A stretch of DNA of 45,104 nucleotides, taken from positions 1 to 45,104 of the forward strand of contig JAFRTL010000011.1 in NCBI GenBank assembly GCA_017427065.1, written 5' to 3'. The notes below the pieces were generated by a model that did no database searches, was not told where the DNA came from, and worked only from the letters and a program-made list of their open reading frames with translations. Positions 8,737-44,607 of the stretch are shown here, one piece after another. The stretch is from Bacteroidaceae bacterium (GTDB taxonomy: Bacteria; Bacteroidota; Bacteroidia; Bacteroidales; Bacteroidaceae). Made by a program: the position numbers and the translations under genes. The stretch's first letter is position 1. Each line of letters starts with the position of its first letter.

Positions 8737-8792
8737 GTTTAGAGTTTAGGGTATAGAGTTAAGAGTTTAGAGTTTAGAGTTTAGAGTTTAGA
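8737..8792 (+). repeat. Heptanucleotide tandem array (GTTTAGA, 8 units)
   Basis: Eight contiguous 7-nt units fill the 62-nt gap between the MBL and esterase genes. Five are exactly GTTTAGA and three differ by one base (GTTTAGG, GTATAGA, GTTAAGA). The array stops 5 nt before the esterase ATG at 8798, so it occupies the ribosome-binding region; copy-number slippage would change the intergenic distance. Confidence 0.85.
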
Positions 8793-8797
8793 GTTTT

Positions 8798-10429: not shown

Positions 10430-10481
10430 CAATTGACAATTGACAATTGACAATTGACAATTGACAATTGACAATTCACAA
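10419..10481 (+). repeat. Heptanucleotide tandem array (TTGACAA, 8 units plus 1 variant)
   Basis: Eight perfect TTGACAA units run from 10419 to 10474, then one TTCACAA variant. The esterase stop codon (10427-10429) is inside the second unit. Confidence 0.9.
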
Positions 10482-29990: not shown

Positions 29991-30021
29991 TTTGAGAAGT
30001 ATCAAATAGTTTGCATATTTG
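29991..30021 (+). promoter_or_regulatory. Bacteroidetes-type promoter of the GH3 gene
   Basis: TTTG at 29991-29994, a 19-nt spacer, then CATATTTG at 30014-30021 (one mismatch from TAnnTTTG). The upstream in-frame ATG at 30011 lies inside this promoter, so the start at 30044 is preferred. Confidence 0.6.
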
Positions 30022-30043
30022 TAGAGGAATAATAGAGACTACT

Positions 30044-32113
30044 ATGGATTTCAATCAAGCCGTAAAACAATACCAGGCCCATCCTTCTAAAGAATGCCTG
30101 AAGACACAAGTCGATGGACTGATCCGCGAGATGACGCTCGATGAGAAAATCTACATGCTCTCCGGACACACCATCTGGCAGTCACTCAAAGACTGGCTGC
30201 GTACCCGTCGCATCTATAATGTGCATGCCTTGCCAGCTGGTGGATGCAAGCGTTTGGGAGTGCCTCCCGTACTCTTCAGCGACGGGCCGCGTGGTGTAGT
30301 GATGGAGCATTCCACCTGTTTCCCCGTGTCTATGCTGAGGGCTTCTTCGTTCGATACCGATTTGGAGTACCGCATCGGCAAGGCCATCGCCTCCGAGATG
30401 ATAGCGCAAGGAGCCAATTTCTTCGGTGGCGTATGCATCAATCTGGTGCGAAATCCTCGTTGGGGCCGCACGCAGGAGAACTATGGCGAAGACCAATATG
30501 TGTTGGGAGAGTTCGGTGCCGCTCTCACGCGCAGTGTGCAGGAAGAAGGCGTGATAGCTTGTCCTAAACACTATGCCTTGAATAGCATCGAAGATCTGCG
30601 CTTCTATGTCGATGTGAAGTGCGATGACCGCACCTTGCACGAGGTCTATCTCCCTCATTTCAAGCGTTGTATAGACGAAGGGGCACTCGCCGTGATGGGC
30701 GCTTACAATAGGTATGAGCAGTTCCACTGCTGCGAGAACAAGAAGCTGCTGACGGACATCCTGCGCACGGAATGGGGCTTCGACGGATTCGTGATGAGCG
30801 ACTTCTTCTGGGGGGTGTATGATGCCGAGCATAGTCTGCGTGCCGGACTCGATATAGAGATGATGTTCACCACGCACTATTCTAAGCGCAAGCTCAAGAA
30901 ACTGCTGAAGAACGGTGCCATACACGAAGGGCTCATAGATCGCGCAGTGGCTAATATCCTCGGCGTGCTCATCAGACTCATCCCTCTCACGAAGCCGCGT
31001 AAGCGTGAGGTGGTGGGCTGTCCAGAACACCGTGCTTTGGCTTTGGAAGCGGCAGAGAAGGGCATGGTGCTGCTGCAGAACAATGGGGTGCTTCCTCTCT
31101 CACCAGATGTGCCCGTGATGGTGACTGGTCCGTATGCCGATGTGGCCAATGTTGGCGACTATGGATCCAGCCGTGTGTTCGACGAGCAGGTGGTCACTCC
31201 TTATCAGGGCATCAGCCGCACATTCGCGCAGGCATCACTCACACAAGGCAATGTAGCTGTGGTCTGCGTAGGAAGCAACAATAAGAAAGAAGGCGAATAC
31301 TTCATCAACTCCAAATATAGCCTCAATGAGAAGCCCAAAGATGGCGGCGGCGATCGTGCCAGCCTTCGTCTGGAGCCCGAAGAGGTGGCTCTCATCAAAT
31401 CGCTCAAGGAGCAAGGCAAGAAAGTCGTGGTGGTGCTCTATTCCGGCTGTGCCATCATCACCGAGGAGTGGAAAGACTATGCCGATGCCATCATCATGAA
31501 CTACTACGCTGGATGTGAGGGCGGCACGGCATTGGCAAACCTGCTCTGTGGGCGTAAGAACTTCACCGGACACCTGCCATTCACGGTGGCGCGCCGCGAA
31601 GAAGACTATCCGCCATTCCTTGAAATGGGACAGAAACCCTACGAAATCACCTATGGCTACTATCACGGCTATGCGCTGTTCGACAAAGAAGAACGTGAGG
31701 CGGCCTATCCGTTTGGCTTCGGTCTGAGCTACTCCGACTATGCCATAGAAGAGGTGCAGGTAGATAGAGTGGGAGAGCAGCTGCACGTCAGTGCCTTGAT
31801 GACCAACAAGGGCCCTATGGATGGCGCCGATGTGCTTCAAGTGTATGTGGGAAGCTGTGGGGCTTCCGATGGTTCCGACCGACCAGTGAAACAGCTGAAG
31901 GGCTTCAAGCGTGTGGAACTGAAAGCTGGTGAGAGCCAGCGCGTAGAGCTGGAGATACCGCTTCAGAATCTTCGCTTCTGGACGCCTGGCGGCTGGGTGC
32001 TCGATAGCAGCTACCGCGTCTTCGTGGGCGATGATAGCCAAAAAGCCATGCATTCTGTGCATCAGATAGATTTTTTTCATAAATTTGCAGCATTGAAACG
32101 ATTAGTGACTTAA
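30044..32113 (+). CDS. GH3 beta-glycosidase without signal peptide
   Basis: A 689-residue glycoside hydrolase family 3 enzyme. The N-terminal TIM barrel contains LREMTLDEKIYMLSG-like sequence (IREMTLDEKIYML), NLVRNPRWGRTQENYGEDQY, CPKHYALNS and the nucleophile D253 in GFVMSDFFWG. The (alpha/beta)6 sandwich (MVLLQNNGVLPLSPDVPVMV) and a fibronectin III-like C-terminus (VLQVYVGS; LKGFKRVELKAGES) complete the usual layout. The N-terminus MDFNQAVKQYQAHPSKE has no signal, so it should be cytoplasmic and act on imported short oligosaccharides or glycosides. The exported isomerase-like gene follows after 14 nt. Confidence 0.92.
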   Translation: MDFNQAVKQYQAHPSKECLKTQVDGLIREMTLDEKIYMLSGHTIWQSLKDWLRTRRIYNVHALPAGGCKRLGVPPVLFSDGPRGVVMEHSTCFPVSMLRASSFDTDLEYRIGKAIASEMIAQGANFFGGVCINLVRNPRWGRTQENYGEDQYVLGEFGAALTRSVQEEGVIACPKHYALNSIEDLRFYVDVKCDDRTLHEVYLPHFKRCIDEGALAVMGAYNRYEQFHCCENKKLLTDILRTEWGFDGFVMSDFFWGVYDAEHSLRAGLDIEMMFTTHYSKRKLKKLLKNGAIHEGLIDRAVANILGVLIRLIPLTKPRKREVVGCPEHRALALEAAEKGMVLLQNNGVLPLSPDVPVMVTGPYADVANVGDYGSSRVFDEQVVTPYQGISRTFAQASLTQGNVAVVCVGSNNKKEGEYFINSKYSLNEKPKDGGGDRASLRLEPEEVALIKSLKEQGKKVVVVLYSGCAIITEEWKDYADAIIMNYYAGCEGGTALANLLCGRKNFTGHLPFTVARREEDYPPFLEMGQKPYEITYGYYHGYALFDKEEREAAYPFGFGLSYSDYAIEEVQVDRVGEQLHVSALMTNKGPMDGADVLQVYVGSCGASDGSDRPVKQLKGFKRVELKAGESQRVELEIPLQNLRFWTPGGWVLDSSYRVFVGDDSQKAMHSVHQIDFFHKFAALKRLVT

Positions 32114-32127
32114 TTAATAATTAAAAA

Positions 32128-33195
32128 ATGAACAGAAGAAAATTCTTTGGAATGGGTGCCGCTGCCCTCACAGGTATGGCACTGATGCCTTCACTGGCCT
32201 CTTGTGCCGGTGAGACTGCTAAGCCAGCAGCTAAGCCTGCTGACGGTAAAGTGAACTCAGATTTCGGTGGCGTACACATTGGTACCATCACTTACAGCTG
32301 GCGTGACATGCCAGGTGGTCTGGAGAACCTTTTGGACTACTGCCGCCGTGCAGGAGTGAGCAATCTGGAACTGATGGGCAACGATCTTGAAACGGCCCTC
32401 GGTGCACCTGAAAGCCCTATGATGAGCATCTACGCAGCCGTATTCGCACGCCTCACAGAGGAGCAGCGCAACAAGGCCATGTCCAGCGGTGCTGGTGTCA
32501 TGGATGCCATGACAGACGAGGAAAAGCAGAAACTTGCCGATTATCAAAAAGCTTACGCAGATTTCCGTAAAAATCTGGATATGAACAAGGTAGATGAAGT
32601 ACGCAAGCGCTTCGAGGCCGAGGGTATCGACATCCATATCGTGAAGACTCAGCCTACTGCTGCTTCTTCTGATGAGGACATCGACTATGCCTTCAAGTTG
32701 GCCAAGGCCATGGGTGCCAAGGGTGTCACCTCAGAGATGTCCCTGGAGAACGCTCAGCGTTGCGCTCCATTCGCAGAGAAGTATGACATGTACTACTGCA
32801 TGCACAATCACTTCCAGTATGCCACTCCAGAGTTCGCTGCTGGTCCAGATCAGGTATTGGCCGTTTCTCCAAACGTGATGCTCAACTTCGACTTTGCACA
32901 CTATTTCGGCTCTACGGGCAAGAATCCTTGCGACTTCATCGAGAAGTACCACGATCGCATCTTCTCTATGCACACCAAGGATAAGACTGGTCCAGATGCC
33001 GCTACACCAAACGAGAATCAGGTTTGGGGCCAGGGACAGACGCCACTGGAGGAAGTGCTGAAGCTCGTGCAGAGCAAGTACCCACAGATCTACTGCGACA
33101 TCGAGCTGGAGTATGCCGTAGCTCCTTGGAGCAACTCCGTAAAGGAGGTAGGCACCTGCGTGAAGTTCGCTCGCCGCGTGCTGGAACTGGGATAA
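32128..33195 (+). CDS. Tat-exported xylose-isomerase-like TIM-barrel protein
   Basis: A 355-residue sugar phosphate isomerase/epimerase-family protein. It begins with a twin-arginine signal (MNRRKFFGMGAAALTGMAL) and ends that region with lipobox LASC (Cys26), suggesting a folded, metal-loaded lipoprotein. AP-endonuclease-2-like metal-site regions are visible in YYCMHNHF, NFDFAHYF, SMHTKDK and CDIELEYA. Exported members of this fold in Bacteroidetes are known to act in 3-keto-sugar and related non-hydrolytic glycoside breakdown, a possible role here (inference). It is 14 nt after GH3 and ends before a strong terminator. Part of it (32975-32997) is repeated at 41884-41906. Confidence 0.85.
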   Translation: MNRRKFFGMGAAALTGMALMPSLASCAGETAKPAAKPADGKVNSDFGGVHIGTITYSWRDMPGGLENLLDYCRRAGVSNLELMGNDLETALGAPESPMMSIYAAVFARLTEEQRNKAMSSGAGVMDAMTDEEKQKLADYQKAYADFRKNLDMNKVDEVRKRFEAEGIDIHIVKTQPTAASSDEDIDYAFKLAKAMGAKGVTSEMSLENAQRCAPFAEKYDMYYCMHNHFQYATPEFAAGPDQVLAVSPNVMLNFDFAHYFGSTGKNPCDFIEKYHDRIFSMHTKDKTGPDAATPNENQVWGQGQTPLEEVLKLVQSKYPQIYCDIELEYAVAPWSNSVKEVGTCVKFARRVLELG

Positions 33196-33218
33196 TCACT
33201 CACAGAGTTGCCAAAATA

Positions 33219-33257
33219 AAAGAGGATATGTCGCTTAGGCATATCCTCTTTATTTTT
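33219..33257 (+). terminator. Strong intrinsic terminator after the isomerase gene
   Basis: Perfect 12-bp stem AAAGAGGATATG (33219-33230) / CATATCCTCTTT (33240-33251), 9-nt loop, then ATTTTTA. It ends the GH3-isomerase transcript. Confidence 0.85.
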
Positions 33258-33311
33258 ATCCTTCTGCGTTTTTGGTAGGGATTATTTGCCCAGGAAATCC
33301 GTAGGAGAAAC
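33258..33311 (+). repeat. 54-bp direct repeat, left copy (AraC 3'-end fragment)
   Basis: Identical over 54 nt to 41905-41958. In the right copy the minus strand encodes the natural C-terminus (GVSPTDFLGK, stop) of the AraC gene; here it is an orphan fragment between the isomerase terminator and the end of an aldo/keto reductase gene. Confidence 0.95.
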
Positions 33312-33314
33312 GTT

Positions 33315-34160
33315 TTATCCGTAAGTCTCAATGAGGCGCTTAACGAACTGCATATCAGAGAAGTTGATGAAGCCCGTGTCACTCTGATTGAGGGTGGCTA
33401 TCTGCTTCATATCCTCGGCAGTGAGACTGAAGTCGAAAATATCCAGATTCTGCGCCATGCGCTCCTTATGACTGCTCTTTGGAATGGCCACGATGCCCCG
33501 CTGTGTCAGCCAACGGAGAGCCACTTGTGCAGCATTCTTGCCATACTTAGCTCCAATGCTTGCCAGTAACTCGCTCTTAATTACGCCCTCTGCGCCTTGA
33601 CCTCCCAGAGGACCCCATGCCATCATACGGGTGCCAAAATCGTTCAGCACACCCTGAATGCCATTCTGCTGCGCTAGTGTGTTGCATTGCAACTGGTTCA
33701 CCATAGGTTTCACGTCCACATAGTGTGCAAAGTCGAAGAAGCGAGCCTCCTGAAAGTTGCTCACGCCAATGGCTCTTACCTTACCAGCACGATAAGCCTT
33801 CTCCATGGCACGCCAACTGCCAAACACATCGCCATACGCCTGATGGATAAGCAGTAGGTCTATGTAGTCCGTCTTCAGCTTTCTGAGGCTCTCGTCAATA
33901 GACTTGGCCGCCTTCTCTTCGCCAGCATTGCTGATCCACACTTTGGTAGTGAGGAAGATATCCTCACGCTTGATGCCACTCTTAGCGATAGCTTCACCCA
34001 CGCCCTCCTCATTGGCGTATGCCTGAGCAGTGTCTATCAGTCTGTAGCCAACGCTCAAAGCATCGCTCACGCAGCGTTCACACTCCTGGGGGCTTACCAG
34101 AAATACCCCATATCCCAGCAATGGCATTTCTACGCCATTCGATAATTTGATTGTCTCCAT
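33315..34160 (-). CDS. Aldo/keto reductase, cytoplasmic
   Basis: A 281-residue NAD(P)H-dependent aldehyde/ketone reductase of the 2,5-diketogluconate reductase-like branch. The catalytic tetrad D43, Y48, K73 and H106 is visible in RLIDTAQAYANE, LTTKVW and LLLIHQAYG, and cofactor-binding segments GVSNF and IPKSSHKERM are present. There is no signal peptide. The stop codon lies 3 nt from the orphan AraC fragment, so the downstream flank of this gene coincides with the rearrangement boundary. Nearby reductase, esterase and flavin genes on the same strand suggest a detoxification or reductive role. Confidence 0.93.
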   Translation of the reverse strand: METIKLSNGVEMPLLGYGVFLVSPQECERCVSDALSVGYRLIDTAQAYANEEGVGEAIAKSGIKREDIFLTTKVWISNAGEEKAAKSIDESLRKLKTDYIDLLLIHQAYGDVFGSWRAMEKAYRAGKVRAIGVSNFQEARFFDFAHYVDVKPMVNQLQCNTLAQQNGIQGVLNDFGTRMMAWGPLGGQGAEGVIKSELLASIGAKYGKNAAQVALRWLTQRGIVAIPKSSHKERMAQNLDIFDFSLTAEDMKQIATLNQSDTGFINFSDMQFVKRLIETYG

Positions 34161-34203
34161 GACCCTTTATTTCATTATATTATTTGTCATTCATTTACGC
34201 AGA

Positions 34204-34211
34204 CAAAATTA
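34204..34211 (-). promoter_or_regulatory. -7 box of the aldo/keto reductase gene
   Basis: TAATTTTG on the minus strand, 44 nt upstream of the start at 34160. Confidence 0.4.
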
Positions 34212-34274
34212 CTACGTTTGCTTCAAACAGCATTTATACTTATTACTGATAATCTTATAGAAAAGTCCGATTCC

Positions 34275-35297
34275 TTACTTCTTTGGGAAAAAGAAGGGGA
34301 GTGCATGGTAACAGAATTCCCATACAGCATTGAAGTCATGGTGTCCGCCTTTCTTTTGGTGATAGGAAAAATTAGTACTATTGAATGTGTCCGTGAGGGC
34401 ACCCATAGCCAATGCTTGATTATGCGTCTGAGCCAGTCGGACATCCTCATCTCCAACGGCATACCACACGTAGAACCCATTACCCTTATAAGGAGAAGCA
34501 TTCACATGCTCACGTAGGAAAGCAGCCGTTTCCTGAGGGTGAGAAGCACCGCCAAACATTGTAATGTGCCAGTTGTCACCACTCATGGGGAGGTAGTATT
34601 TCTGCACTTCTAAAGCTTGCTCGAAGATGTACCACGTGGTGATGCTTCCAAGGGAGAAGCCGCCAAACGCCCGATGGTCACGACTGGCAATGATGCCTGC
34701 CATATCTGTGCTTTCAGCGTAGGTGCTATACTTGCCTTCCACTGCAGGAATCAAGTCGTTCTTCAGTTCTTGAGAGAATACGGCTGCCTCAGCACAAGAT
34801 TCTCCCCATGCTTTACTACGATTGTCCTTGTCCCACGTGGGAGAAACAGCGATGAATGGCTTGCTCAGTCCTTGCTCTATCAAATTATCAAAAATGTTTA
34901 CCAGAGGAGTACGACCGTTTCCACCACGTCCTAAAAAATACTCTTGCGCAGTGCCTCCCCATCCATGCACCAGGTAGATGATGTCATATTTCTGATCTGG
35001 ATCGTAACCGTATGGCAGATAGACGTATGCTGGCTTATGCGTAGTCTGCATGGAACCTGTGTAGTCTTTAGACTCATACTCCACCAACTCTATCTTTCCT
35101 TGCTGATTTGCAGCACGTAAGAAAGCCGATGGTACATCTGTGGTATATTGGATGCTGAAGTCAGGAGCTGGCTTCGTAGTGGTGCTCTGCTCCATTGGAG
35201 TACTCTCTATTTCAGTCATGGCACTCACTTTCTCAGAGCAAGCCGTCCATCCTATGGCTGCTAATGCCAATGTTCCAAATATGTATGATCTTTTCAT
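34275..35297 (-). CDS. Esterase D/feruloyl-esterase-like lipoprotein
   Basis: A 340-residue alpha/beta hydrolase of the putative esterase (Esterase_D) family. The N-terminus MKRSYIFGTLALAAIGWTAC ends in a lipobox-like Cys20. The oxyanion region (IYLVHGWGGTAQEYF) precedes the nucleophile elbow GGFSLGS with S215, and the catalytic His is probably in KKGGHHDFNAV. This family includes feruloyl and acetyl-xylan esterases of plant-cell-wall degradation. The ATG at 35297 is preferred to an in-frame upstream start (35327) that overlaps the preceding gene. It follows the flavin-reductase-fold gene by 29 nt, probably in one operon. Confidence 0.85.
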   Translation of the reverse strand: MKRSYIFGTLALAAIGWTACSEKVSAMTEIESTPMEQSTTTKPAPDFSIQYTTDVPSAFLRAANQQGKIELVEYESKDYTGSMQTTHKPAYVYLPYGYDPDQKYDIIYLVHGWGGTAQEYFLGRGGNGRTPLVNIFDNLIEQGLSKPFIAVSPTWDKDNRSKAWGESCAEAAVFSQELKNDLIPAVEGKYSTYAESTDMAGIIASRDHRAFGGFSLGSITTWYIFEQALEVQKYYLPMSGDNWHITMFGGASHPQETAAFLREHVNASPYKGNGFYVWYAVGDEDVRLAQTHNQALAMGALTDTFNSTNFSYHQKKGGHHDFNAVWEFCYHALPFFFPKK

Positions 35298-35326
35298 CTC
35301 TATTGTATTATTATCTATTGAAATCA

Positions 35327-36046
35327 TTATCTCTGCTGAATAATTCTACCAGAACCCCAAGCCTGACCAACACTGTCTGTCACCATGCGATAGATGTAGG
35401 CAGAAGAATCATAAACCACCGGCTGCAGTTTCTCCAAATCTACACGACCATTCTCACCCAGAATGCTCTCATCAGCACTCATGTTCACCACTTCACCCAC
35501 GATGGTAGCCCCACCATCGCCAGTCTCTGTGAAAGAATAGAGACGGCACTCCAACGTCAGTGGATATTGGTCTATGATAGGAGCATCTACATTCGGACTT
35601 GGGGTTGCTGTGAATCCTGCACGAGCCACTTTGTCAGGAACATCGTTTCCGCTTACCAATCCGAAGTAGTCGCTTTCATTCAATGTCTTCACGGTAGCGA
35701 AGCTGATAGTAAATGCCTGCTTCAGTCGGATGTTGTCTGTGGTCTTGTGGGATGAAAGATTGAGCACCACCTTATTATAATCACTCTGCACCGCCCAAGC
35801 AGCCATCATCACATCAGGGTTCTGATTGGCATCATAGGTAGCTATCATGACGGCTGGCAGTGGGGTGAATACCATGCCTCTGCTGCCGAAATTCTTTCGT
35901 CCAGCCACTTGCTCCGCTCTTGCCTGCTGATTGGTGGCAGGGGCAGCATTCTTTTCCTGACTACATGCCATGAATGTCAGCAGCAACATAACTGCTGACA
36001 TCTGGCTCCATCTACATACCATTTCTCCAAAAACAATCATTTTCAT
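35327..36046 (-). CDS. Exported flavin reductase-fold (split-barrel FMN-binding) lipoprotein
   Basis: A 239-residue protein with a lipobox (LLLTFMAC, Cys28; the exact start is uncertain, with Met9 and Met16 possible). The mature part matches flavin reductase-like FMN-binding split barrels: PLPAVMIATYDANQNPDVMM, then AAWAVQSDY, VVLNLSSHKTTDNIRLKQAF, SDYFGLVSG and LTLECRL. Relatives such as flavoredoxins bind FMN and pass electrons; a lipid-anchored, extracytoplasmic form is unusual. It shares a likely transcript with the downstream esterase. Its electron donor outside the cytoplasm is not evident. Confidence 0.8.
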   Translation of the reverse strand: MKMIVFGEMVCRWSQMSAVMLLLTFMACSQEKNAAPATNQQARAEQVAGRKNFGSRGMVFTPLPAVMIATYDANQNPDVMMAAWAVQSDYNKVVLNLSSHKTTDNIRLKQAFTISFATVKTLNESDYFGLVSGNDVPDKVARAGFTATPSPNVDAPIIDQYPLTLECRLYSFTETGDGGATIVGEVVNMSADESILGENGRVDLEKLQPVVYDSSAYIYRMVTDSVGQAWGSGRIIQQR

Positions 36047-36079
36047 AAACTTAAAAACAACTAATTATTTATCCTGTTG

Positions 36080-36087
36080 CAAAGATA
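36080..36087 (-). promoter_or_regulatory. -7 box of the flavin reductase-esterase operon
   Basis: TATCTTTG on the minus strand, 34 nt upstream of the start at 36046. Confidence 0.5.
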
Positions 36088-36149
36088 AGGCAAACAACTG
36101 AGGTGAGCGTTTCCTATTTTTCTTGGTTTTGTCACACTATTTCGGTTAT

Positions 36150-37145
36150 TCATTGATTTTCCCAGAATCGGATCGCGTCATTGATCCATCCTTCTGCCAC
36201 AGTGCCAGTGCCTAACCCGAAACCATGCCCTAATCCTGGATAGACATGAAACTCTGTGGGAATGCCCAGCGCTGCCATACCTTGCAGTCGGCGTTGCATA
36301 GTACGCCAGTTGGCAATGCCGTCACTGTCGCCAACACAGACATAGGTAGGGGCATCATCAGCAGAGAATTCGCTCAAGCCTGTATATTGCATCACCACCG
36401 TCCCTGCTTTCTGGGAAGTAGCTCCTCCAAAGGCCATAGGCCCATAACCGCCTACCCATGCTGCCATACGGGCACCTGCAGAGCCACCCCAGAGGGAGTA
36501 ACCATCAGTGTTGATGCCCCATTCCTCGGCATGGGCAAAGACGAAGTCGATGGCACGTGCCAAATCTTCACAAGCCGTCTGTGCTCCAGGGCGATAAATC
36601 AAGGCAAAGGCGTGATAGCCTTGCTTTGACAATTCCAATGCATGTGGAAAACTATCGTGCATGGCACCCACATAAGAGAAGCCGCCTCCTGCATTGCAAA
36701 TGGCAAAACGTGCGCCAGGTTCTCCTTGGAAGAAAAACAACCCCGTGTCTCGTTTACGAGGATCGGCGAGCTTCTCTGCCTCCGTGTAGATATCGAAGAA
36801 GATGGTTTCTCCCCGTTCAGCACGTGTCTTCAGCGAATTGACTATCTCTACCGTCTTATCAGGGTCAATGTGTGTGTACCACGTCAGACGCAGTTGTTCC
36901 AGCTTTTCTCCGCTCCAATAGCTTGTATTGACAGGGAAAAGCAGACGTCCCGCTTCTCCGAAAGCAGGATCGGCAATCACCTCACGGATGCTACTATTAC
37001 GAGTAAAGTAAGAAGCAGTCGCAGTGCCCTCTTTTTCTGTATGTGATACAATAGGCTCTGAAGGCGTATTTGCCTGCACGTGTTCATTGCTACATCCTGT
37101 CAGGATAGTCATAGACAGCATACTTATCATCAGCATTTTCGTCAT
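36150..37145 (-). CDS. Alpha/beta hydrolase lipoprotein (BD-FAE/acetyl-esterase-like)
   Basis: A 331-residue lipoprotein (lipobox TILTGC, Cys18). An N-terminal region of about 130 residues (REVIADPAFGEAGRLLFPVN) precedes an alpha/beta hydrolase domain. That domain has oxyanion motif NAGGGFSY (151-158), nucleophile S222 in LWGGSAGARMA, an acidic residue near VCVGDSDGI and His in YPGLGHGFG. This layout is common in Bacteroidetes and is often labelled xylanase-associated or acetyl esterase; the natural ester is unknown. It is divergent to the Tat-exported aldo/keto reductase. Confidence 0.85.
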   Translation of the reverse strand: MTKMLMISMLSMTILTGCSNEHVQANTPSEPIVSHTEKEGTATASYFTRNSSIREVIADPAFGEAGRLLFPVNTSYWSGEKLEQLRLTWYTHIDPDKTVEIVNSLKTRAERGETIFFDIYTEAEKLADPRKRDTGLFFFQGEPGARFAICNAGGGFSYVGAMHDSFPHALELSKQGYHAFALIYRPGAQTACEDLARAIDFVFAHAEEWGINTDGYSLWGGSAGARMAAWVGGYGPMAFGGATSQKAGTVVMQYTGLSEFSADDAPTYVCVGDSDGIANWRTMQRRLQGMAALGIPTEFHVYPGLGHGFGLGTGTVAEGWINDAIRFWENQ

Positions 37146-37177
37146 ACCTTATTTATTATATATTATTTTGATTGGGA

Positions 37178-37185
37178 CAAAGGTA
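37178..37185 (-). promoter_or_regulatory. -7 box of the alpha/beta hydrolase gene
   Basis: TACCTTTG on the minus strand, 33 nt upstream of the start at 37145. Confidence 0.5.
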
Positions 37186-37327
37186 AGGCTTATTTTGAGA
37201 AGCATTGTTTTCATTTTTCCAGTGGATTATCACCTTTTCCCCGTTTATCTGAAAGCCATAAATCACTTACCGAATTTTCAGCATTTTCTACGGAAAAAAT
37301 CGTAACATCTGCTACATTCAGATGCTC

Positions 37328-37335
37328 TATCTTTG
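37328..37335 (+). promoter_or_regulatory. -7 box of the tandem aldo/keto reductase operon
   Basis: TATCTTTG, 49 nt upstream of the ATG at 37385. No TTTG at -33. An in-frame ATG at 37322 lies before this box and is rejected. Confidence 0.5.
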
Positions 37336-37384
37336 CATCATGGAAATTAGTCCGATTATTATTAAATTAAACCAAGGTATAGTT

Positions 37385-38365
37385 ATGAAAAGAAGAGATT
37401 TTATCAGGACATTGTCTATGGCACTGGCTGCCACGGCAACAGGAAGAATGAGTGCCCAAGTGCTGAACCTAAAGAATGCTTCAGAGGCAGGTGTGCCTAT
37501 CGCTACGCTGAACAACGGTGTGATGATGCCACGTCTGGGTATAGGTACTTTCCTTCAGCCTAACAATGACGTTTGTCGTGCGTCTGTATTGGCTGCTTTG
37601 CAGAATGGCTTCCGCCATATTGATACCGCACATGCCTATAATGATGAGGAAGGTTGTGGACTGGCAGTGAAAGACAGCGGACTGAAGCGTGAAGACGTAT
37701 GGGTGACCAGCAAACTGTGGGTGAACGACTATGGTACTGACATCACTCCACGCGCTATTGATGAGATGCTGGGACGCTTGCAGGTAGATTATATCGATTT
37801 ACTCTATGTGCATCAGCCAGTGGGTAGGGTAGTAGAAGCCTATCGTGCCATGGAAGATGCCTATAAGGCTGGCAAGATCCGTGCCATTGGTATCAGCAAC
37901 TTCGACTATCCTGATGAGCGCTGCGAAGCCATCTTCAATGAGATCATGACTACTTCTGAGATCAAGCCTCAGGTACTTCAAGTAGAGTGCCATCCATACG
38001 CTCAGCGCTTGGATGTGGTGGAGAAGAAGATTAAGCCTTACAACCTGCAATTGGAATGCTGGTATCCACTGGGAGGTCAGTGGAGCAACGGTGCCTTGCT
38101 GAAAGATGAAACACTCATCCGTATCGGTCAGGCCCATGGCAAGAGCGCTGCGCAGGTCATCCTCCGTTGGCACATGCAGGAGGGCCACTCTGCCATACCA
38201 GGCTCCAAGAATCCTGATCACATCAAGGAGAACATAAGCATCTTCGACTTTGAGCTTTCCGATCAAGAGATGGCTACTATCCGTGGCTTGAACAAGGAGG
38301 AGCGTTTCTACAATGCTACTTATGAGCAGACCATGGGCTTTGCAAATGGGGGACCAAGACGATGA
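37385..38365 (+). CDS. Tat-exported aldo/keto reductase
   Basis: A 326-residue aldo/keto reductase with a twin-arginine signal (MKRRDFIRTLSMALAATATG) followed by a typical cleavage region (MSAQ). The catalytic tetrad is intact: D80 and Y85 in FRHIDTAHAYND, K110 in VTSKLW, H143 in LLYVHQPVG. Cofactor-binding segments are also visible (AIGISNF; IPGSKNPDHIKEN). Tat export implies that it crosses the membrane folded, perhaps with bound nicotinamide cofactor, which is odd for an enzyme that normally exchanges NAD(P)H. It overlaps the next reductase gene by 4 nt (ATGA), which suggests translational coupling. Confidence 0.9.
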   Translation: MKRRDFIRTLSMALAATATGRMSAQVLNLKNASEAGVPIATLNNGVMMPRLGIGTFLQPNNDVCRASVLAALQNGFRHIDTAHAYNDEEGCGLAVKDSGLKREDVWVTSKLWVNDYGTDITPRAIDEMLGRLQVDYIDLLYVHQPVGRVVEAYRAMEDAYKAGKIRAIGISNFDYPDERCEAIFNEIMTTSEIKPQVLQVECHPYAQRLDVVEKKIKPYNLQLECWYPLGGQWSNGALLKDETLIRIGQAHGKSAAQVILRWHMQEGHSAIPGSKNPDHIKENISIFDFELSDQEMATIRGLNKEERFYNATYEQTMGFANGGPRR

Positions 38366-39360
38366 AAAAGGTAGCGTTAGGCAATAGTGGATTAGAGGTC
38401 TCTGCCTTAGGCTTGGGCTGCATGGGACTGAGTCATGCCTATGGCAAGGCCATGAACCTCACTGAAATCAGGGAGGTGATCATGGCGGCTGTAGATCTGG
38501 GTTACACGTTCTTCGACACGGCAGAGGTCTATGGCTCCGAGCACGATCCTCACCACAACGAGCGCATGCTGGGAGAGATCATAGGCCCTATTCGCGACAA
38601 GATAGTATTGGCCACTAAGTTTGGCGTACACTTTGAAGACACGGATGATGGCAATGCTACCCATCCGCTCATCACAGACTCCAGTCCTGAGACCATCCGT
38701 CGTTCAGTAGAAGACTCGCTCCGACGCTTGCAGACAGACCGTATCGACCTCTACTACCAGCATCGCATCGACCCTAAAGTAGAGCCTGAAGTGGTGGCAG
38801 AGGTGATGGCGGACCTTATTCGCGAAGGAAAAATATTGCATTGGGGCATTTCAGAGGCCAATGAAGACTATCTGCGTTGTGCGCATGCTGTGTGTCCTGT
38901 GGCAGCCATCGAAAACCGCTACTCCATGATGGCTCGCTGGCATGAAGCCTTGTTCCCTGTGCTCGAGGAACTTGGTGTGGGTTTCGTAGCATTCTCACCC
39001 ATGGCCAACGGACTGCTTACGGGCTGTTACAACACCCAGTCGCACTTTGATCGCAAGACGGACTTCCGCGCTGCCATGCCACAATACAGTGAGGAGAGCT
39101 TCGCCAAGAATCAAGCCCTCTTCGACCTTATTAATGGTTTGGCAGCGAAACACCAAGCCACTCCTGCGCAGATTTCATTGGCTTGGATGATCAATAAGGG
39201 CATCGTACCTATTCCTGGTACCCGTAAGATCTCCCGACTGGAAGAGAACGCTGGCGCTGCAAAGATAGAGATGTCTGCCGAGGAACTGAAGCGCATTGAC
39301 ACAGCCCTTGATGGCATGGAGATGAGCGCCGTCTTCGGAGGCTCGAAGATTTCGAAATAG
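38362..39360 (+). CDS. Aldo/keto reductase, cytoplasmic (AKR13-like)
   Basis: A 332-residue aldo/keto reductase resembling the bacterial AKR11/13 group. The tetrad is D52 and Y57 in FFDTAEVYGSE, K86 in LATKFG and H134 in LYYQHRIDP. It also has the motifs GLGCMGLSHAYG (18-29), WGISEANEDYLRCA, FSPMANGLLTG and IPGTRKISRLEENAG typical of NADPH-binding members. No signal peptide, so it works in the cytoplasm although its coupled upstream partner is exported. The start codon overlaps the upstream stop. The secreted NTF2-like gene follows after 32 nt. Confidence 0.93.
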   Translation: MKKVALGNSGLEVSALGLGCMGLSHAYGKAMNLTEIREVIMAAVDLGYTFFDTAEVYGSEHDPHHNERMLGEIIGPIRDKIVLATKFGVHFEDTDDGNATHPLITDSSPETIRRSVEDSLRRLQTDRIDLYYQHRIDPKVEPEVVAEVMADLIREGKILHWGISEANEDYLRCAHAVCPVAAIENRYSMMARWHEALFPVLEELGVGFVAFSPMANGLLTGCYNTQSHFDRKTDFRAAMPQYSEESFAKNQALFDLINGLAAKHQATPAQISLAWMINKGIVPIPGTRKISRLEENAGAAKIEMSAEELKRIDTALDGMEMSAVFGGSKISK

Positions 39361-39392
39361 TTTAAAGTAAAACAAATTAATTAGTCAAGAAT

Positions 39393-39896
39393 ATGAAAAA
39401 AAGATTGTTAAAGTCGCTGCTCGTTGCAGCCGTTATGCTGGTGGCTATGGCTACCCCAAGTTTTGCACAGTTCCAGAACTTTGAGAACAAGACCCACACT
39501 CCAGAGGAACAGCCATTTGCTGACCTCAGCCAGAAGATTTGGGATTTGATGGCTCAGAAAGACGCCACCTCCCTGAAAGACATCTTCCATCCCAATGCCA
39601 TGTTCGTACACATGGGTGGCTATTGGGGCACAGAGCAGGAACTCGCTACTATCGGTGGCGGTTTCATCTACTACAAGCAGGCCGATGTCTATGGTGTGGA
39701 TGTGAAGCAGATCAATGAAGACAACTGGGCAGTCTATAGCACCATCGTCCTCACTGCAGAGCTGGGCGGCAATGACGTGATCACACCGTTCTTTGTGACG
39801 CAGACCTTCACACGCGAGAATGGCAAGTGGCTGCTCACGGCCTTTGTATTCACCACTCGCATGGGTGGTCCTGGTGCCGACCGTGCCAATCATTAA
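39393..39896 (+). CDS. Secreted NTF2-like (SnoaL/DUF4440-type) protein
   Basis: A 167-residue protein with a strong signal peptide (MKKRLLKSLLVAAVMLVAMA, cleaved after SFAQ). The mature part has the cone-shaped NTF2-like pattern of nuclear transport factor 2/SnoaL proteins: DLSQKIWDLMAQKDATSLKD, then IFHPNAMFVHMGG, and the late strands WAVYSTIVLTAE and FTRENGKWLLTAFVF. Such proteins act as small isomerases, dehydratases or ligand-binding folds. A specific reaction cannot be assigned. It is the last gene of the tandem reductase operon, which ends at the terminator 23 nt downstream. Confidence 0.85.
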   Translation: MKKRLLKSLLVAAVMLVAMATPSFAQFQNFENKTHTPEEQPFADLSQKIWDLMAQKDATSLKDIFHPNAMFVHMGGYWGTEQELATIGGGFIYYKQADVYGVDVKQINEDNWAVYSTIVLTAELGGNDVITPFFVTQTFTRENGKWLLTAFVFTTRMGGPGADRANH

Positions 39897-39918
39897 TATA
39901 AAGTTAGTGTATTGAAGA

Positions 39919-39955
39919 AGGGCTTCGCTGTGAAAGCGAAGCCCTTTATTTTATC
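39919..39955 (+). terminator. Intrinsic terminator of the reductase operon
   Basis: Perfect 11-bp stem AAGGGCTTCGC (39919-39929) / GCGAAGCCCTT (39937-39947), 7-nt loop, then TATTTTAT. Confidence 0.85.
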
Positions 39956-39970
39956 CCTCTGAATCAGGCG

Positions 39971-40876
39971 TTAACCACGCTGGTGGTTAGCCCTGACAAT
40001 CTCCTGCAGTGTGATCTTCGGATGGCGATAGCGGGCATTCGGATTGGCCTCACGCACCAGCTTGATGGCCTTCTGCGGACAGTTGTTGGCACATGCCAGG
40101 CAGTAGGCGCAGTCACCATTGTTGGTGATACCGTTATTGCCAAAACTATAGCACTTTTTAGGACAAATATCCACACACGTTCCGCAGCCTACACAGAGGT
40201 CTCTGTCCACGCGCAACAGTGCCTGACTGGTGATAGGATAGATTGGATTGCGTGACACCATGTTCATCAGCATCTCGCCACGCTGGTGCTGCTCAGGCGT
40301 AAACTCATAGATCCACTTACGCTGGGTGTTGATGTCTTCCACCACCTGGGCTATTTGCCCCTCTTCGTTCTTCTGCTCATAGAGCGCACGTTGTTGGTCT
40401 TGATCGAACATCGTGAGATACACATCCTGCATCAGCACCACGTTGATGTAGTCGAACTTGATGTCATACTGGGCAGCTTACTGCTCCCAAAGTTCCGTCA
40501 CCAGACAGTTGTCCTAACCATAGGTGATAACCGTAAACATATAGTTGGCTTTCAACTTAACTTTCTGTGCGAATTCCTGCACGATGGAAGGAGCTCTGCC
40601 TTGATAGTCTGGGAACACGAAGCCTATCTCGTCGGCCTCAAACTCAAACTGGTCGCCCTGCAGCACCTGTGGGATGCTGAGAGGTTTTTCGCTGAGGTGC
40701 TTGGCCACATAGAGGCTGTTGCCCGATCCCGTGAAATAAAAAACGATGCGCTTCTTGCCATTGTCACTGGAGCATGAAGTCAGCACATTACTGCTTCCCA
40801 AGAGGAAAGCCCCCGTTGCCAGTAAGCCCAGATTCTTCAAGGCTTCACGGCGTGTCATTCGCTTGATGGTAGTCAT
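39971..40876 (-). pseudogene. Exported flavodoxin/4Fe-4S ferredoxin-type protein, two in-frame stops
   Basis: One reading frame runs from ATG 40876 to 39971 but is broken by TAG (40514-40516) and TAA (40478-40480), 12 codons apart. The N-terminal part has a Tat-like signal (MTRREALKNLGLLATGAF) with lipobox LTSC, then a flavodoxin phosphate loop (VFYFTGSGNSLYVAKHLSE). After the stops the frame continues sensibly (KFDYINVVLMQDVYLTMFDQ) into two 4Fe-4S motifs (CVGCGTCVDICP, CAYCLACANNCP). Together they form an EFR1-type flavodoxin-ferredoxin electron carrier of about 300 residues. The stops lie in the flavodoxin half, so no full product is expected unless they are read through or are sequencing errors. 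Confidence 0.85.
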
Positions 40877-40904
40877 AATCTTTACGTTTATAGTTCGTTT
40901 TCTG

Positions 40905-40912
40905 CAAAGATA
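40905..40912 (-). promoter_or_regulatory. -7 box of the broken flavodoxin-ferredoxin gene
   Basis: TATCTTTG on the minus strand, 29 nt upstream of the start at 40876; the promoter looks intact although the gene is broken. Confidence 0.5.
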
Positions 40913-40989
40913 CGCATCAGTGAGTGTTTAAACTTTATGAATAATTCTGCAAAATAACTCATTTTTTCCTTTCATTCCGAAAAAATGCT

Positions 40990-40997
40990 TATCTTCG
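40990..40997 (+). promoter_or_regulatory. Weak -7 box of the first AraC gene
   Basis: TATCTTCG, one mismatch from consensus, 19 nt before the ATG at 41017. Confidence 0.35.
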
Positions 40998-41016
40998 CTA
41001 CAAAAAGGAAAGATTT

Positions 41017-41823
41017 ATGGAATTTGATGCCACCAATGTCATTATCGAGAAGGGAGTCAGTGGATTAGCCACAGACTCCATGATGGACTATGTAGCCCAT
41101 GTGTATGTCTATCAAGGCAGTTGCCAGATGAAGTACCACGGAGAGCCACAGACCCTTGAGTCAGGACAGTGCATGATTGTCCGTGTGCAGCGCCTCCTTA
41201 GCGATGTGCAGCCATCGGCAGATTTCATTGGCACCACCATCTTCATCCGTCCCAGCTTCATAGAGATGTCCACCCCTCGAAACAACTATGGCATTCGTGG
41301 CTCCCTCATGCTTTTCATCAACCCCGTGATGAAGCTCGATGCGCAAGAGCAGCAGCGCTGTCGTCGCAATTTCGAAGAGGTGGAAGAACGTCTCACCAGC
41401 GACCATCCATTCAAGCACGATGCCGTGAGCTGCGCCTGTCAGCTCATGTTCCTCGACTTCTTCCAGTTCCACAAGCGCCTCTATCCAGGCGACGATGTGC
41501 CGTTCCAGAGCGCTCAACTCATGTCAGATTTCTTCCAGATGCTCTTTAGGGGAGACTACAGGCAGAGTAGGGAAGTGGGCTACTATGCCGATAAGCTTTG
41601 TGTCACGCCCAAATACCTCTCCGAAGTATGTAAGAAAGTGAGTGGGCATGGCGCCAACTATTGGATCAATCGCTTCACCATCATTGAGATTCAGCGATTG
41701 CTGCGAAACCGCACCGTCTCACTGGTTCAGATGGCCGATGACTTCAACTTCTCATCCCAAGCCTATTTCAGCCGCTTCGTGCAGAACTATCTTGGCACCA
41801 GCCCCAGTGCCTACAGAGATTAG
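41017..41823 (+). CDS. AraC-family transcriptional regulator
   Basis: A 268-residue regulator. The N-terminal half (about 1-150) is cupin-like (VYVYQGSCQMKYHGEPQTLE) and may sense a ligand. The C-terminal part (about 165-268) has the double helix-turn-helix of AraC proteins: YYADKLCVTPKYLSEVCKKV for the first, and SLVQMADDFNFSSQAYFSRF then VQNYLGTSPSAYRD for the second. It is divergent from the flavodoxin-ferredoxin pseudogene, the usual arrangement for an activator controlling its neighbour. It may also control the reductase genes to the left. Confidence 0.93.
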   Translation: MEFDATNVIIEKGVSGLATDSMMDYVAHVYVYQGSCQMKYHGEPQTLESGQCMIVRVQRLLSDVQPSADFIGTTIFIRPSFIEMSTPRNNYGIRGSLMLFINPVMKLDAQEQQRCRRNFEEVEERLTSDHPFKHDAVSCACQLMFLDFFQFHKRLYPGDDVPFQSAQLMSDFFQMLFRGDYRQSREVGYYADKLCVTPKYLSEVCKKVSGHGANYWINRFTIIEIQRLLRNRTVSLVQMADDFNFSSQAYFSRFVQNYLGTSPSAYRD

Positions 41824-41883
41824 GCTGCATTTATCATTTATTGGTGTCTATTATCCTCTATCAAGGCAGAGCTTTCGCCCTGC

Positions 41884-41906
41884 CCAAGGATAAGACTGGT
41901 CCAGAT
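41884..41906 (+). repeat. 23-bp copy of an internal piece of the isomerase gene
   Basis: Identical to 32975-32997 inside the Tat-exported isomerase gene. It is fused directly, sharing two bases (AT), to the 54-bp repeat that follows. Confidence 0.9.
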
Positions 41907-41958
41907 CCTTCTGCGTTTTTGGTAGGGATTATTTGCCCAGGAAATCCGTAGGAGAAAC
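41905..41958 (+). repeat. 54-bp direct repeat, right copy (3' end of second AraC gene)
   Basis: Identical to 33258-33311. Here the sequence forms the natural 3' end of the AraC gene on the minus strand. Confidence 0.95.
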
Positions 41959-42861
41959 TCCCGCCAACCGCTTGAACAGACGCGTGAAGTGCTGCGAATA
42001 GTCGAAACCTAGGAGGTGAGCCGTCTCACTCACATTATACCCGTTCATAAGCAGGCTCTTAGCCTTATTGAGGATGAACGTATGGATGTAGTTGATGGCC
42101 GTGCCGCCCGTTGCCTGATGCACCAAGTCGCCAAAGTAGTGAGGCGAGTAAGCCAGCTCCGTAGCCAGATAGCGCACCGAGGGCAGTCCGTTGTCATACT
42201 GCTTCCCCTCCAGGAAATACTGTTCCAGCAGTCTGTGCATGCGCTTCAGCAGATCATCGCCCCCTCTGTCCTCCTGCGAGAGCTGGCGCAGATAGCTACG
42301 CTGGCAATACTCCAGAATCAAGTGCAGATAGCCCAGCAGAATGTCGCGCAGCGCAGGAGAATCCGCATGCCCCTGCAGCTCCTCCCGCATCAGTGTCAGC
42401 AGGCGCTCTATGCTGTCCCATTCAGCAGGCTCCAGAAGCAGAGACTCCGTGGCAAAGTAAGAGAAGTACTGATAGCTGCCCATCTTGGCCTCCAACTCCG
42501 TGCCATGCAGCAAATCAGGGCTCCACAGCAGCACCCATCCACTCAGGCGGAGCTCTTCCCCTGTATCCTCCATGCCACCTATCTGTCCAGGCGCCACCGC
42601 TATGACAGACGCATCGCTCGCTTGGATGGTCTTCATGCCATACGAGAGGTTCTTTGGAAACTCCTTCTGGATGAAAAGCCCATACACGCCATAGTTGTTC
42701 AGGCTGCTGTGTATAGGCGGCAGCTCATCAAAGTGGATGATGCTCACCAGCGGATGCAGTTCGGGCGCAAGCACCTGGCGGGCAAACACATTGGGGGTGT
42801 CAACTTTCAGAATCTTCTTCATAACTGCGTCAAAGTTAGGCATTTCTTTTGGAATAACCAT
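41929..42861 (-). CDS. AraC-family transcriptional regulator (second)
   Basis: A 310-residue regulator with a cupin-like sensor region (HPLVSIIHFDELPPIHSSLN; VIAVAPGQIGGMEDTGEELR, as in AraC-type ligand domains). A C-terminal double helix-turn-helix follows at about 205-310 (VRYLATELAYSPHYFGDLVH; NVSETAHLLGFDYSQHFTRL, then FKRLAGVSPTDFLGK). The start may instead be Met14 (42822, MKKILKVDTPNVF), the more usual beginning of such proteins; a TAACTTTG -7-like box at 42831-42838 would leave almost no leader for that start. It is divergent from the Cys-type hydrolase gene and probably regulates it. Its last 10 codons are duplicated at 33258-33311. Confidence 0.9.
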   Translation of the reverse strand: MVIPKEMPNFDAVMKKILKVDTPNVFARQVLAPELHPLVSIIHFDELPPIHSSLNNYGVYGLFIQKEFPKNLSYGMKTIQASDASVIAVAPGQIGGMEDTGEELRLSGWVLLWSPDLLHGTELEAKMGSYQYFSYFATESLLLEPAEWDSIERLLTLMREELQGHADSPALRDILLGYLHLILEYCQRSYLRQLSQEDRGGDDLLKRMHRLLEQYFLEGKQYDNGLPSVRYLATELAYSPHYFGDLVHQATGGTAINYIHTFILNKAKSLLMNGYNVSETAHLLGFDYSQHFTRLFKRLAGVSPTDFLGK

Positions 42862-42927
42862 ACCATTTTTTGCAAAATTGGTAGATATTCACCCCAAATT
42901 TCTACATCCCACCATCCATATTCTCCC

Positions 42928-42935
42928 TACCTTTG
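42928..42935 (+). promoter_or_regulatory. -7 box of the Cys-type hydrolase operon
   Basis: TACCTTTG, 34 nt upstream of the ATG at 42970. No TTTG at -33; activator control by the divergent AraC protein would fit. Confidence 0.5.
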
Positions 42936-42969
42936 CACCAGATTAAATGATTAAATATAACATACCCTT

Positions 42970-44070
42970 ATGAACAAAGCTATTTTCGCCGCCTGCCTTA
43001 TGGCTGGCACACTGACCGCCTGCAGCATGCAGCAAGACGTAAAACCTGTAAATGAGAACGATATGAATCAAGAATTGAGTTTAGTGACAGAGTGGGACAA
43101 GACCTTCCCATTGAGTGACAAGGTAGAGCACCGCAAGGTGACCTTCCACAACCGTTATGGCATCACTTTGGCTGCCGATATGTACACCCCAAAGAACGCC
43201 ACTGGCAAACTGCCAGCCCTGGCCGTCAGCGGACCTTTCGGAGCCGTGAAGGAGCAGAGCAGCGGCCTCTATGCCCAGCACATGGCAGAGCGTGGTTTTC
43301 TGACCATCGCCTTCGACCCATCATTTACGGGCGAGAGTGGGGGTGAACCTCGTCGCATGGCGTCACCAGATATCAATACAGAAGACTTCCTCGCAGCTGT
43401 CGATTTCCTCTCCGTGCAAGATAACGTCGATGCAGAGCGCATTGGCATCATCGGCATCTGTGGTTTTGGTGGTTTCAGTGTGAACGCTGCCGCCCTCGAT
43501 CCTCGCATCAAGGCTACCGTTGCCATGACCATGTATGATATGAGCAAGGTCAACGTAGAGGGTTATTTCGAGAGTGAGAATACGCCAGAGCAACGCATAG
43601 AGAAACGTCGCGTCCTGGCAGCACAGCGCACAGCCGACTACAAGTCAGGCACTTACCAGCGTGCAGGTGGTGTGGTAGATCCTCTCCCAGAAGATGCCCC
43701 ATACTTCGTAAAAGACTACTACGCCTACTATAAGACTCCACGTGGCTACCACGCACGCAGTGGCAACTCCAATGATGGTTGGAACGTGATAGGTACGCAG
43801 TCGTTCCTCAACCAGCCATTGCTGGCATGGGCACACGAGATAGAAACCCCAGTGCTCCTCATCCACGGTGAGCGCGCCCATAGCCGCTACTTCAGCGAAT
43901 ACGCTTTCGAGAAGATGACAGGTGTACACGTAGAGAATGAAAGCAAGGTGGTAGGCAATAAGGAAATCATGATCATCCCAGGCGCCTCACACGTAGATCT
44001 CTACGACGATGTGGCAGGAGTCATCCCTTACGATAAGATCACCGCTTTCTTCACAGAAAATCTGAAATAA
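42970..44070 (+). CDS. Alpha/beta hydrolase lipoprotein with probable Cys nucleophile (YcjY-like)
   Basis: A 366-residue alpha/beta hydrolase with a lipobox (TLTAC, Cys18). It resembles the YcjY/dienelactone-hydrolase-like group: ADMYTPKNATGKLPALAVSG, FDPSFTGESGGEPRR, and an acidic/His pair near LLIHGERAHS and IPGASHVDLYD. The nucleophile elbow reads GICGFGG, placing C164 where most esterases have Ser, as in dienelactone hydrolases. The substrate is unknown. The divergent AraC gene probably controls it. A cyclophilin-like lipoprotein gene follows after 6 nt, so the two form an operon. Confidence 0.88.
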   Translation: MNKAIFAACLMAGTLTACSMQQDVKPVNENDMNQELSLVTEWDKTFPLSDKVEHRKVTFHNRYGITLAADMYTPKNATGKLPALAVSGPFGAVKEQSSGLYAQHMAERGFLTIAFDPSFTGESGGEPRRMASPDINTEDFLAAVDFLSVQDNVDAERIGIIGICGFGGFSVNAAALDPRIKATVAMTMYDMSKVNVEGYFESENTPEQRIEKRRVLAAQRTADYKSGTYQRAGGVVDPLPEDAPYFVKDYYAYYKTPRGYHARSGNSNDGWNVIGTQSFLNQPLLAWAHEIETPVLLIHGERAHSRYFSEYAFEKMTGVHVENESKVVGNKEIMIIPGASHVDLYDDVAGVIPYDKITAFFTENLK

Positions 44071-44076
44071 AAAGGC

Positions 44077-44607
44077 ATGAAGATACTCAGACACATTCCC
44101 CTGATGCTGGCCCTGCTGCTCTGCTGCAGTTGGGTGTCGTGTGGCGACGATGACCCCGTGTCAACCATCAATCCGCAGCCCGAACAGACGCCTGTCAAGG
44201 AGCAGCCCACCAATGACAATGATAATGACAATAATCCCATGAATCGTCAGATCAAATTCACCATCGACGGTGAAACCTCCTTCACCGCCACATTGGCCGA
44301 TAACTCGTCAGCCAAAGCCTTGCTCGAAGCCCTGAAAGAAGCCCCCATCACCTACGAGGCACACGACTATGGCAATTTCGAGAAAGTAGGGGAGCTGGGA
44401 CGCTCTTTCCCTCGCAACGACCAGTCCATCACCACGCAGCCAGGCGACCTTATCCTCTATCAAGGCAGCAGCCTCTGCATCTACTACGACAAGAACCAGT
44501 GGACGTTCACACGCCTTGGCAAGGTAGATGGCCTTTCACAATCGGAACTGAAGAAAGCCGTAAAAGCAGGACAAGGCAACGTAAAAGTGACCCTCTCATT
44601 GCCTTGA
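44077..44607 (+). CDS. Cyclophilin-like fold lipoprotein
   Basis: A 176-residue protein with a lipobox-like SWVSC (Cys22) followed by acidic residues, then a flexible Asn/Asp-rich linker (NDNDNDNN, about 48-55). The C-terminal 120 residues (IKFTIDGETSFTATLADNSS; ALLEALKEAPITYEAHDYGN; GDLILYQGSSLCIYYDKNQW; FTRLGKVDG) match the small bacterial cyclophilin-like domain often found beside flavodoxins, aldo/keto reductases and AraC regulators. Its role is unknown; the catalytic residues of true prolyl isomerases are not evident. It is co-transcribed with the upstream hydrolase and ends before a strong terminator. Confidence 0.85.
   Translation: MKILRHIPLMLALLLCCSWVSCGDDDPVSTINPQPEQTPVKEQPTNDNDNDNNPMNRQIKFTIDGETSFTATLADNSSAKALLEALKEAPITYEAHDYGNFEKVGELGRSFPRNDQSITTQPGDLILYQGSSLCIYYDKNQWTFTRLGKVDGLSQSELKKAVKAGQGNVKVTLSLP

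Follow-up and report, generated by a model that had tools for sequence, protein, structure and literature searches.

The gene block and its neighbours

The window analyzed here is the entire contig C8 (JAFRTL010000011.1, 45,104 nucleotides) of G000, the draft genome of a Bacteroidaceae bacterium, and the subject of this report is a block of oxidoreductase genes at 33312–41884, which lies between two convergent genes and is edged by direct repeats of its surroundings. The left neighbour (32128–33195, + strand) is an isomerase-like gene encoding a xylose-isomerase-like TIM barrel (Pfam PF01261), with a 91% amino acid identical counterpart in the related genome G023, and is followed by a terminator hairpin at 33213–33257. 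The right neighbour, AraC2 (41929–42861, − strand; PF12833), encodes an AraC-type regulator. Both flanking genes are intact.

From left to right, the block contains the aldo/keto reductase (AKR) gene AKR1 (33315–34160, −), an esterase gene (−), a flavin reductase gene (−), a hydrolase gene (−), AKR2 (+), AKR3 (+), a DUF4440 gene (+), a flavodoxin/ferredoxin-type gene (39971–40876, −), the AraC-type regulator gene AraC1 (41017–41823, +; PF12833) and a hairpin, as assigned from open reading frames (ORFs), Pfam matches and the likeness to a block in G137 and G013. The three reductases, the flavodoxin and the AraC gene named in the initial annotation are all present; that description was incomplete in omitting two esterase/hydrolase genes, the flavin reductase and the DUF4440 gene, and its flavodoxin gene has two in-frame stop codons. 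The latter gene, which we take to be a flavodoxin from its appearance, has no Pfam match in its first part and a Fer4 match in its second; it is open, with 301 aa, in G114 and G137.

The block boundaries are the points where homology to relatives is lost. On the left, homology to G137 and G013 starts at 33315, the stop codon of AKR1 (the G114 match starts further in), and on the right it ends at 41804–41822, close to the stop of AraC1 (G137, G023). The hairpin that follows AraC1, GGCAGAGC-TTTC-GCCCTGCC (41865–41884, +), agrees at 21/22 bases with a full hairpin elsewhere in the same genome (C19:60896) and is perhaps a remnant of the AraC1 terminator.

Direct repeats and a scrap of the isomerase gene at the block edges

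The stretches 33258–33311 and 41905–41958 (both +) are identical at 54 of 54 nt, and the repeat is maximal. The right copy is the true 3′ end of AraC2, with 30 nt from the gene, stop codon included, and 24 nt from downstream of it, while the left copy is an orphan AraC2 3′ end that begins directly past the isomerase terminator, at the base of its hairpin. The presence of an orphan AraC2 end at this place suggests that AraC2 once ended against the isomerase terminator hairpin. Furthermore, 23 nt of the isomerase gene (32975–32997, +) recur without a mismatch at 41884–41906 (+), where they begin at the base of the hairpin after AraC1 and overlap the right 54-mer by 2 nt (AT). Collectively, 41884–41958 is a copy of 32975–33311 minus 262 bp; the endpoint of this deletion is exactly the base of the isomerase hairpin, and all of the scars are on one strand and in the same direction. 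The right junction holds a scrap matching nearby sequence, with possible microhomology of 2 nt where the 23-mer meets the 54-mer and of about 1 nt, by hand, between the hairpin and the 23-mer. These repeats had been reported in the initial annotation, and its 54-nt identity, its 23-nt match with the 2-nt overlap and its assignment of the true and orphan AraC ends are all correct to the base.

Neither repeat is due to chance, since across 60 windows simulated with an order-1 Markov model the longest direct repeat was 13–18 nt. The 23-mer occurs at just these two positions in the window, its full match in the G000 genome being the local isomerase gene only, and the 54-mer has two copies only in that genome. 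The genus sample comprised 158 genomes, with G000 counted in each search; 149 were searched with the stretches 41850–42050 (E up to 0.001) and 32900–33420, and 158 with 41929–43100, 33312–34400 and 39393–41900. No 54-mer was found in the other genomes searched with 41850–42050: the matches in nine of them begin at 41945 or later, so that none carries the repeat. The two copies show zero differences in the duplicated bases, whereas host DNA differs by 12–16% at the nucleotide level from G023, the nearest relative found; on these sequence comparisons the insertion appears to be recent.

Neither an integrase nor a transposase was found among 35 window proteins scanned with Pfam, which include every one of the ten ORFs of the block, and there are no tRNA genes in the window. 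No inverted repeat of at least 18 nt with an 11-nt seed joins the block ends. Consequently, terminal inverted repeats of that length and the transposase of a DDE transposon were not found, nor was the internal recombinase gene of an integrase-type island.

The spacer after AraC1 (41851–41869) and a cyclophilin-like gene (44450–44468) share 19 bp exactly and in direct orientation. This repeat was considered as a second templated scrap, which would have made the junction a mosaic of several scraps. It was not counted, because its 3′ part falls in the hairpin after AraC1, of which C19:60896 is the near-identical full form; the repeat may be chance. Among 741 60-bp stretches of the window, taken outside two tandem-repeat areas, a match longer than this one was given only by three, all belonging to the 54- and 23-nt repeats. 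The same spacer also matches the flavodoxin/ferredoxin-type gene over 16 bp, in the opposite orientation. Two 7-bp tandem-repeat arrays are present in the window, at 8762–8800 and 10419–10480.

A related block at a second site

In G137, a like block lies between two genes that we take to be a symporter gene and dnaG. Its order is AKR1, esterase, flavodoxin (by eye), hydrolase, AKR2, AKR3, an extra esterase, DUF4440, flavodoxin/ferredoxin-type and AraC1. The like block of G013 is split across two contig ends, and G008 and G155 show parts of it at the same dnaG site. The site is empty in G027, G029 and G065, where the two flanking genes are adjacent. The G137 block is bordered on each side by 38 bp of empty-site sequence (C6:27241–27278 and 37842–37879), the two copies agreeing at 36/38 positions. 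Both repeat copies were also read in G013 and G155 (about 43 bp in G155, counted by eye), and the right copy only in G008. One copy in the empty site and two in the filled one are the pattern of a target-duplicating insertion. Direct repeats derived from the target are found at both block ends in the window as well as at the dnaG site. The 54-mer and the 38–43-mer are different sequences, so there is no common attachment sequence. A shared core, TATTTGC, was set aside, because about one in seven comparisons of this kind would be expected to share a 7-mer (hand estimate). A degenerate copy of the dnaG start, noticed by eye to the right of the block in G137, was dropped because other species do not support it. 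Taken as they stand in the assemblies, these sequences indicate that a block in which no recombinase gene was found carries long target repeats at two unrelated sites, the second of which is the new point of this work.

In the dnaG protein tree, the filled G137 and the empty G027 are sisters (99/98). Occupancy of the site requires at least three changes on the best tree; the well-supported branches force two, and four of the six inner branches are weak. As to sequence variants, the left-hand repeat in G137 agrees with the empty sister G027 and the right-hand repeat with G008, whose variants are common to several other relatives. Between G137 and G013 the block is 93.6% identical in nucleotides over 6.7 kb, compared with 77.6% and 79.5% for the flanks, which argues for exchange of the dnaG-site block between species; a 3.1-kb stretch spanning the symporter gene, AKR1 and the esterase gene is 89.3% identical.

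A control was drawn from 281,578 aligned bases of G137 and G027, in which an insertion of at least 500 bp had to face no more than 60 bp on the other side, a rule that would miss short repeats. Eight clean insertions were obtained, two of them with overlapping flanks. One is the block itself (an overlap of 72 by BLAST extension and 38 by direct comparison), and its presence among the eight is built in, because both the genome pair and some contigs had been selected for holding the block and homologues of its neighbours. The other is an ordinary integrative element of 6.5 kb that lies next to tRNA-Glu and encodes a phage-type integrase (53 by BLAST). Gaps of 1–30 bp were found in the remaining six, and three smaller differences with overlaps of 5–14 bp fall below the rule. 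The message of the control is that the remaining insertions are without long repeats. The tRNA-Glu element itself (L269:9500–16000, contig C9 of G137) has direct repeats of about 50 bp, a hairpin included.

Relatives, source and distribution of the block

G023, with 84–88% identical DNA in this neighbourhood, has the isomerase gene followed by a second TIM-barrel gene, a PD40 gene, an AraC1 homologue (76% aa identity) and a flavodoxin gene; no match to AKR1 DNA was found in this genome, which is 76% complete. The gene set of G023 at this isomerase locus (L046:6540–10227) is thus another one, in which an AraC1 homologue is accompanied by a flavodoxin and an aldo/keto reductase; the spot may therefore attract such clusters. 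A GH3 glycosidase gene (30011–32113) separates ubiA from the isomerase gene in the window; these two are adjacent in G023, and the locus therefore differs by a second insertion or loss, at which no long repeat was seen by eye. AraC2 has homologues of 61–66% aa identity in G006, G124, G027, G137 and G008 (partial, at a contig end in G008), and AraC2, a hydrolase gene and the cyclophilin-like gene (41929–44607) recur in relatives as a module, in varied order and places.

G114 holds a partial block beside a RhuM/Fic-domain gene, with AKR1 adjoining the DUF4440 gene and the contig ending before AraC1. The window block is 84.3% (974 bp) and 89.0% (1631 bp) identical to it. Five host stretches compared between G000 and G114 gave 94.1, 75.2, 83.7, 80.8 and 71.5%, so that the block stands above four of them and below the fifth; dnaG alone gave 73.7% and the symporter gene alone 78.1%, and the second and third stretches overlap these two genes. 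A foreign origin of the window copy, proposed from the two genes, was withdrawn after the five stretches (four stretches and one gene) had been compared. The 94.1% stretch, 2.5 kb around an isomerase paralogue (L201 on G114:C27, L034 on G000:C27), is possibly itself exchanged, the others lying at 71.5–83.7%.

A family search with AKR1 and the esterase gave matches in 104 of 399 genomes, the own genome and seven of its genus included. Twelve neighbourhoods from other genera were fetched from among these; AKR1 is 81–92% aa identical in them and their clusters are reshuffled, and no third site of the same block was found in them. No megablast match to the block was found on plasmids. Plasmids (122 records for AraC1) and phages (4 records for one hydrolase) yielded only matches below 60% identity, and viral contigs lack the 41 bases of the 54-mer with which they were searched.

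Interpretation and alternative explanations

Taking these observations together, the preferred reading, to which we give a probability of about 55%, is a recent illegitimate (non-site-specific) insertion of the AraC-regulated oxidoreductase cluster 33312–41884 between the convergent isomerase and AraC2 genes, which duplicated the target. The structure is probably real and a recent gene-cluster insertion, and template switching is probably its route. We infer this route, the role of the second hairpin and the former adjacency of isomerase and AraC2 from the arrangement of the scars, and the observed facts fit a single left-to-right copying path. Repair synthesis would have run through the isomerase terminator and 54 bp into the AraC2 side before switching into a block, supplied by a relative or from elsewhere in the same genome, which would have been copied up to the hairpin after AraC1. 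A switch back to about 337 bp behind the point of departure would have entered the isomerase gene for 23 bp; with the help of the AT microhomology, copying would then have jumped 262 bp to the base of the hairpin behind the isomerase gene and continued through AraC2.

Several observations weigh against this reading. The eight other genomes mapped for an isomerase match of at least 79% DNA identity have the gene in other contexts, and in none of them is it followed by AraC2 or the block. AraC2 adjoins such an isomerase or the block in 0/5 of the genomes with long AraC2 matches, a mapping that stands apart from 21 further genomes with only short matches to 41929–43100. An empty isomerase–AraC2 junction was thus not found among the eight isomerase and five AraC2 homologues mapped, and the polarity of the insertion is read from the scars. 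Only one scrap is certain, and the 19-bp repeat, which overlaps the hairpin after AraC1, is doubtful as a second. The stretch 41865–41884 folds no better than shuffled sequence (z −0.17), lacks a T run and does not appear in the terminator scan. Block identity to G114 falls inside the spread of the host stretches, so that a foreign origin is unsupported, and identity to G137 (72–81%) is about equal to that of the isomerase gene (76.7%). A 337-bp target duplication followed by a 262-bp deletion accounts for the right side equally well, and the structure is read from the assembly, a draft in 27 contigs that is 83% complete. The insertion with local duplication proposed in the initial annotation is nevertheless well supported by the like block elsewhere in the genus and by the orphan AraC 3′ end, although a relative with the plain isomerase–AraC junction was looked for and none was found; of the two routes that it named, template switching and recombination with a partly deleted copy, each is still plausible.

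The strongest of the alternatives, which we consider unlikely, is the joining of two alleles. A donor would have carried the block beside a partly deleted isomerase–AraC2 junction (in the order block, 23-mer, 54-mer, AraC2), and recombination would have been homologous inside AraC2 and illegitimate on the left, the recipient keeping isomerase and its 54-mer and gaining the fused 23- and 54-mers. Such a history would account for a right copy that equals the left flank minus a deletion. The G027 and G008 variants of the two G137 repeats at the dnaG site look as if drawn from two sources, and the occupancy changes, numbering at least two, together with a block closer between G137 and G013 than its flanks, indicate that exchange by flanking recombination seems to occur. 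The donor required by this explanation would have had the intermediate locus, and none was found in the genus searches (149 or 158 genomes).

Somewhat less likely again is a staggered break, in which long single-stranded ends were filled in around the block and the right copy subsequently lost 262 bp, by a deletion spanning the isomerase hairpin. The target repeats at both known sites are in keeping with it, as is a deletion endpoint exactly at the hairpin base with 2-nt microhomology. The stagger would have to be 337 nt in the window versus about 40 at the dnaG site, however, and two events are required.

An assembly chimera at the 54-bp overlap appears improbable. The assembly is a draft and 54 is close to common k-mer sizes, but a k-mer join would not make a 23-bp scrap fused to the second 54-mer; moreover, the block has relatives in the genus, and like repeats flank it in other assemblies, at a site with empty relatives. 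The chimeric join that the initial annotation had offered as an alternative is weakened accordingly. Least probable, by a narrow margin, is site-specific integration by a tyrosine recombinase acting in trans, with the 54 bp as left and right attachment sites (attL/attR) at the AraC2 3′ end: such elements do leave repeats over gene 3′ ends, as the real one beside tRNA-Glu in the control illustrates with its integrase, but none of the 35 window proteins scanned is an integrase, the repeat sequences differ between the two sites, the second target lies between two divergent genes and the 23-bp scrap is left unexplained.

Comparison with known systems and implications

The insertion resembles integrative elements and islands moved by tyrosine recombinases between attL and attR in placing its cargo at variable sites between direct repeats of about 40–55 bp, one of which here restores the end of a neighbouring gene; unlike them, it has no tRNA, no recombinase gene was found in it, its repeat sequence is specific to each site and it bears an extra scrap. 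With rearrangements by fork stalling and template switching or microhomology-mediated break-induced replication (FoSTeS/MMBIR), as described in the portions of that literature consulted, it shares a junction at which a little neighbouring sequence is repeated in unchanged orientation and a return behind the point of departure, and the 2 nt of possible microhomology may be a further likeness. Those cases are mostly eukaryotic, whereas the present one is bacterial, lies at the edge of a whole gene cluster and has one certain scrap. In homology-facilitated illegitimate recombination of naturally transforming bacteria, one end of the foreign DNA is joined by homology and the other end illegitimately; the window differs in its long duplicated target and its scrap. 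As regards content, the block has the same gene families and similar neighbourhoods as other AraC-regulated aldo/keto reductase and flavodoxin clusters, and among the neighbourhoods inspected the nearest gene order is limited to G137 and G013, which have the extra esterase and, by eye, a flavodoxin at the position of the window's flavin reductase.

The related block with duplicated edges at another site hints at gene movement without a dedicated mobility enzyme. A much more speculative proposal, which we regard as doubtful, is that such blocks form a class of recombinase-free passengers, whose spread regularly duplicates 40–55 bp or more of the target, leaves the neighbours intact and allows clean later removal by recombination between the repeats, so that clusters would be mobile in general without enzymes of their own. 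In the portions of the literature consulted, no bacterial precedent turned up for long target repeats at an integrase-free cluster.

To our knowledge, the entry of integrase-free metabolic gene clusters into chromosomes is poorly understood. Because like clusters have left legible scars at two unrelated places, one of which is also known in its unoccupied state, this entry can be studied by strain comparison and by laboratory work in Bacteroides. The long repeats would also permit clean loss of the block, which would fit its scattered presence at the dnaG site.

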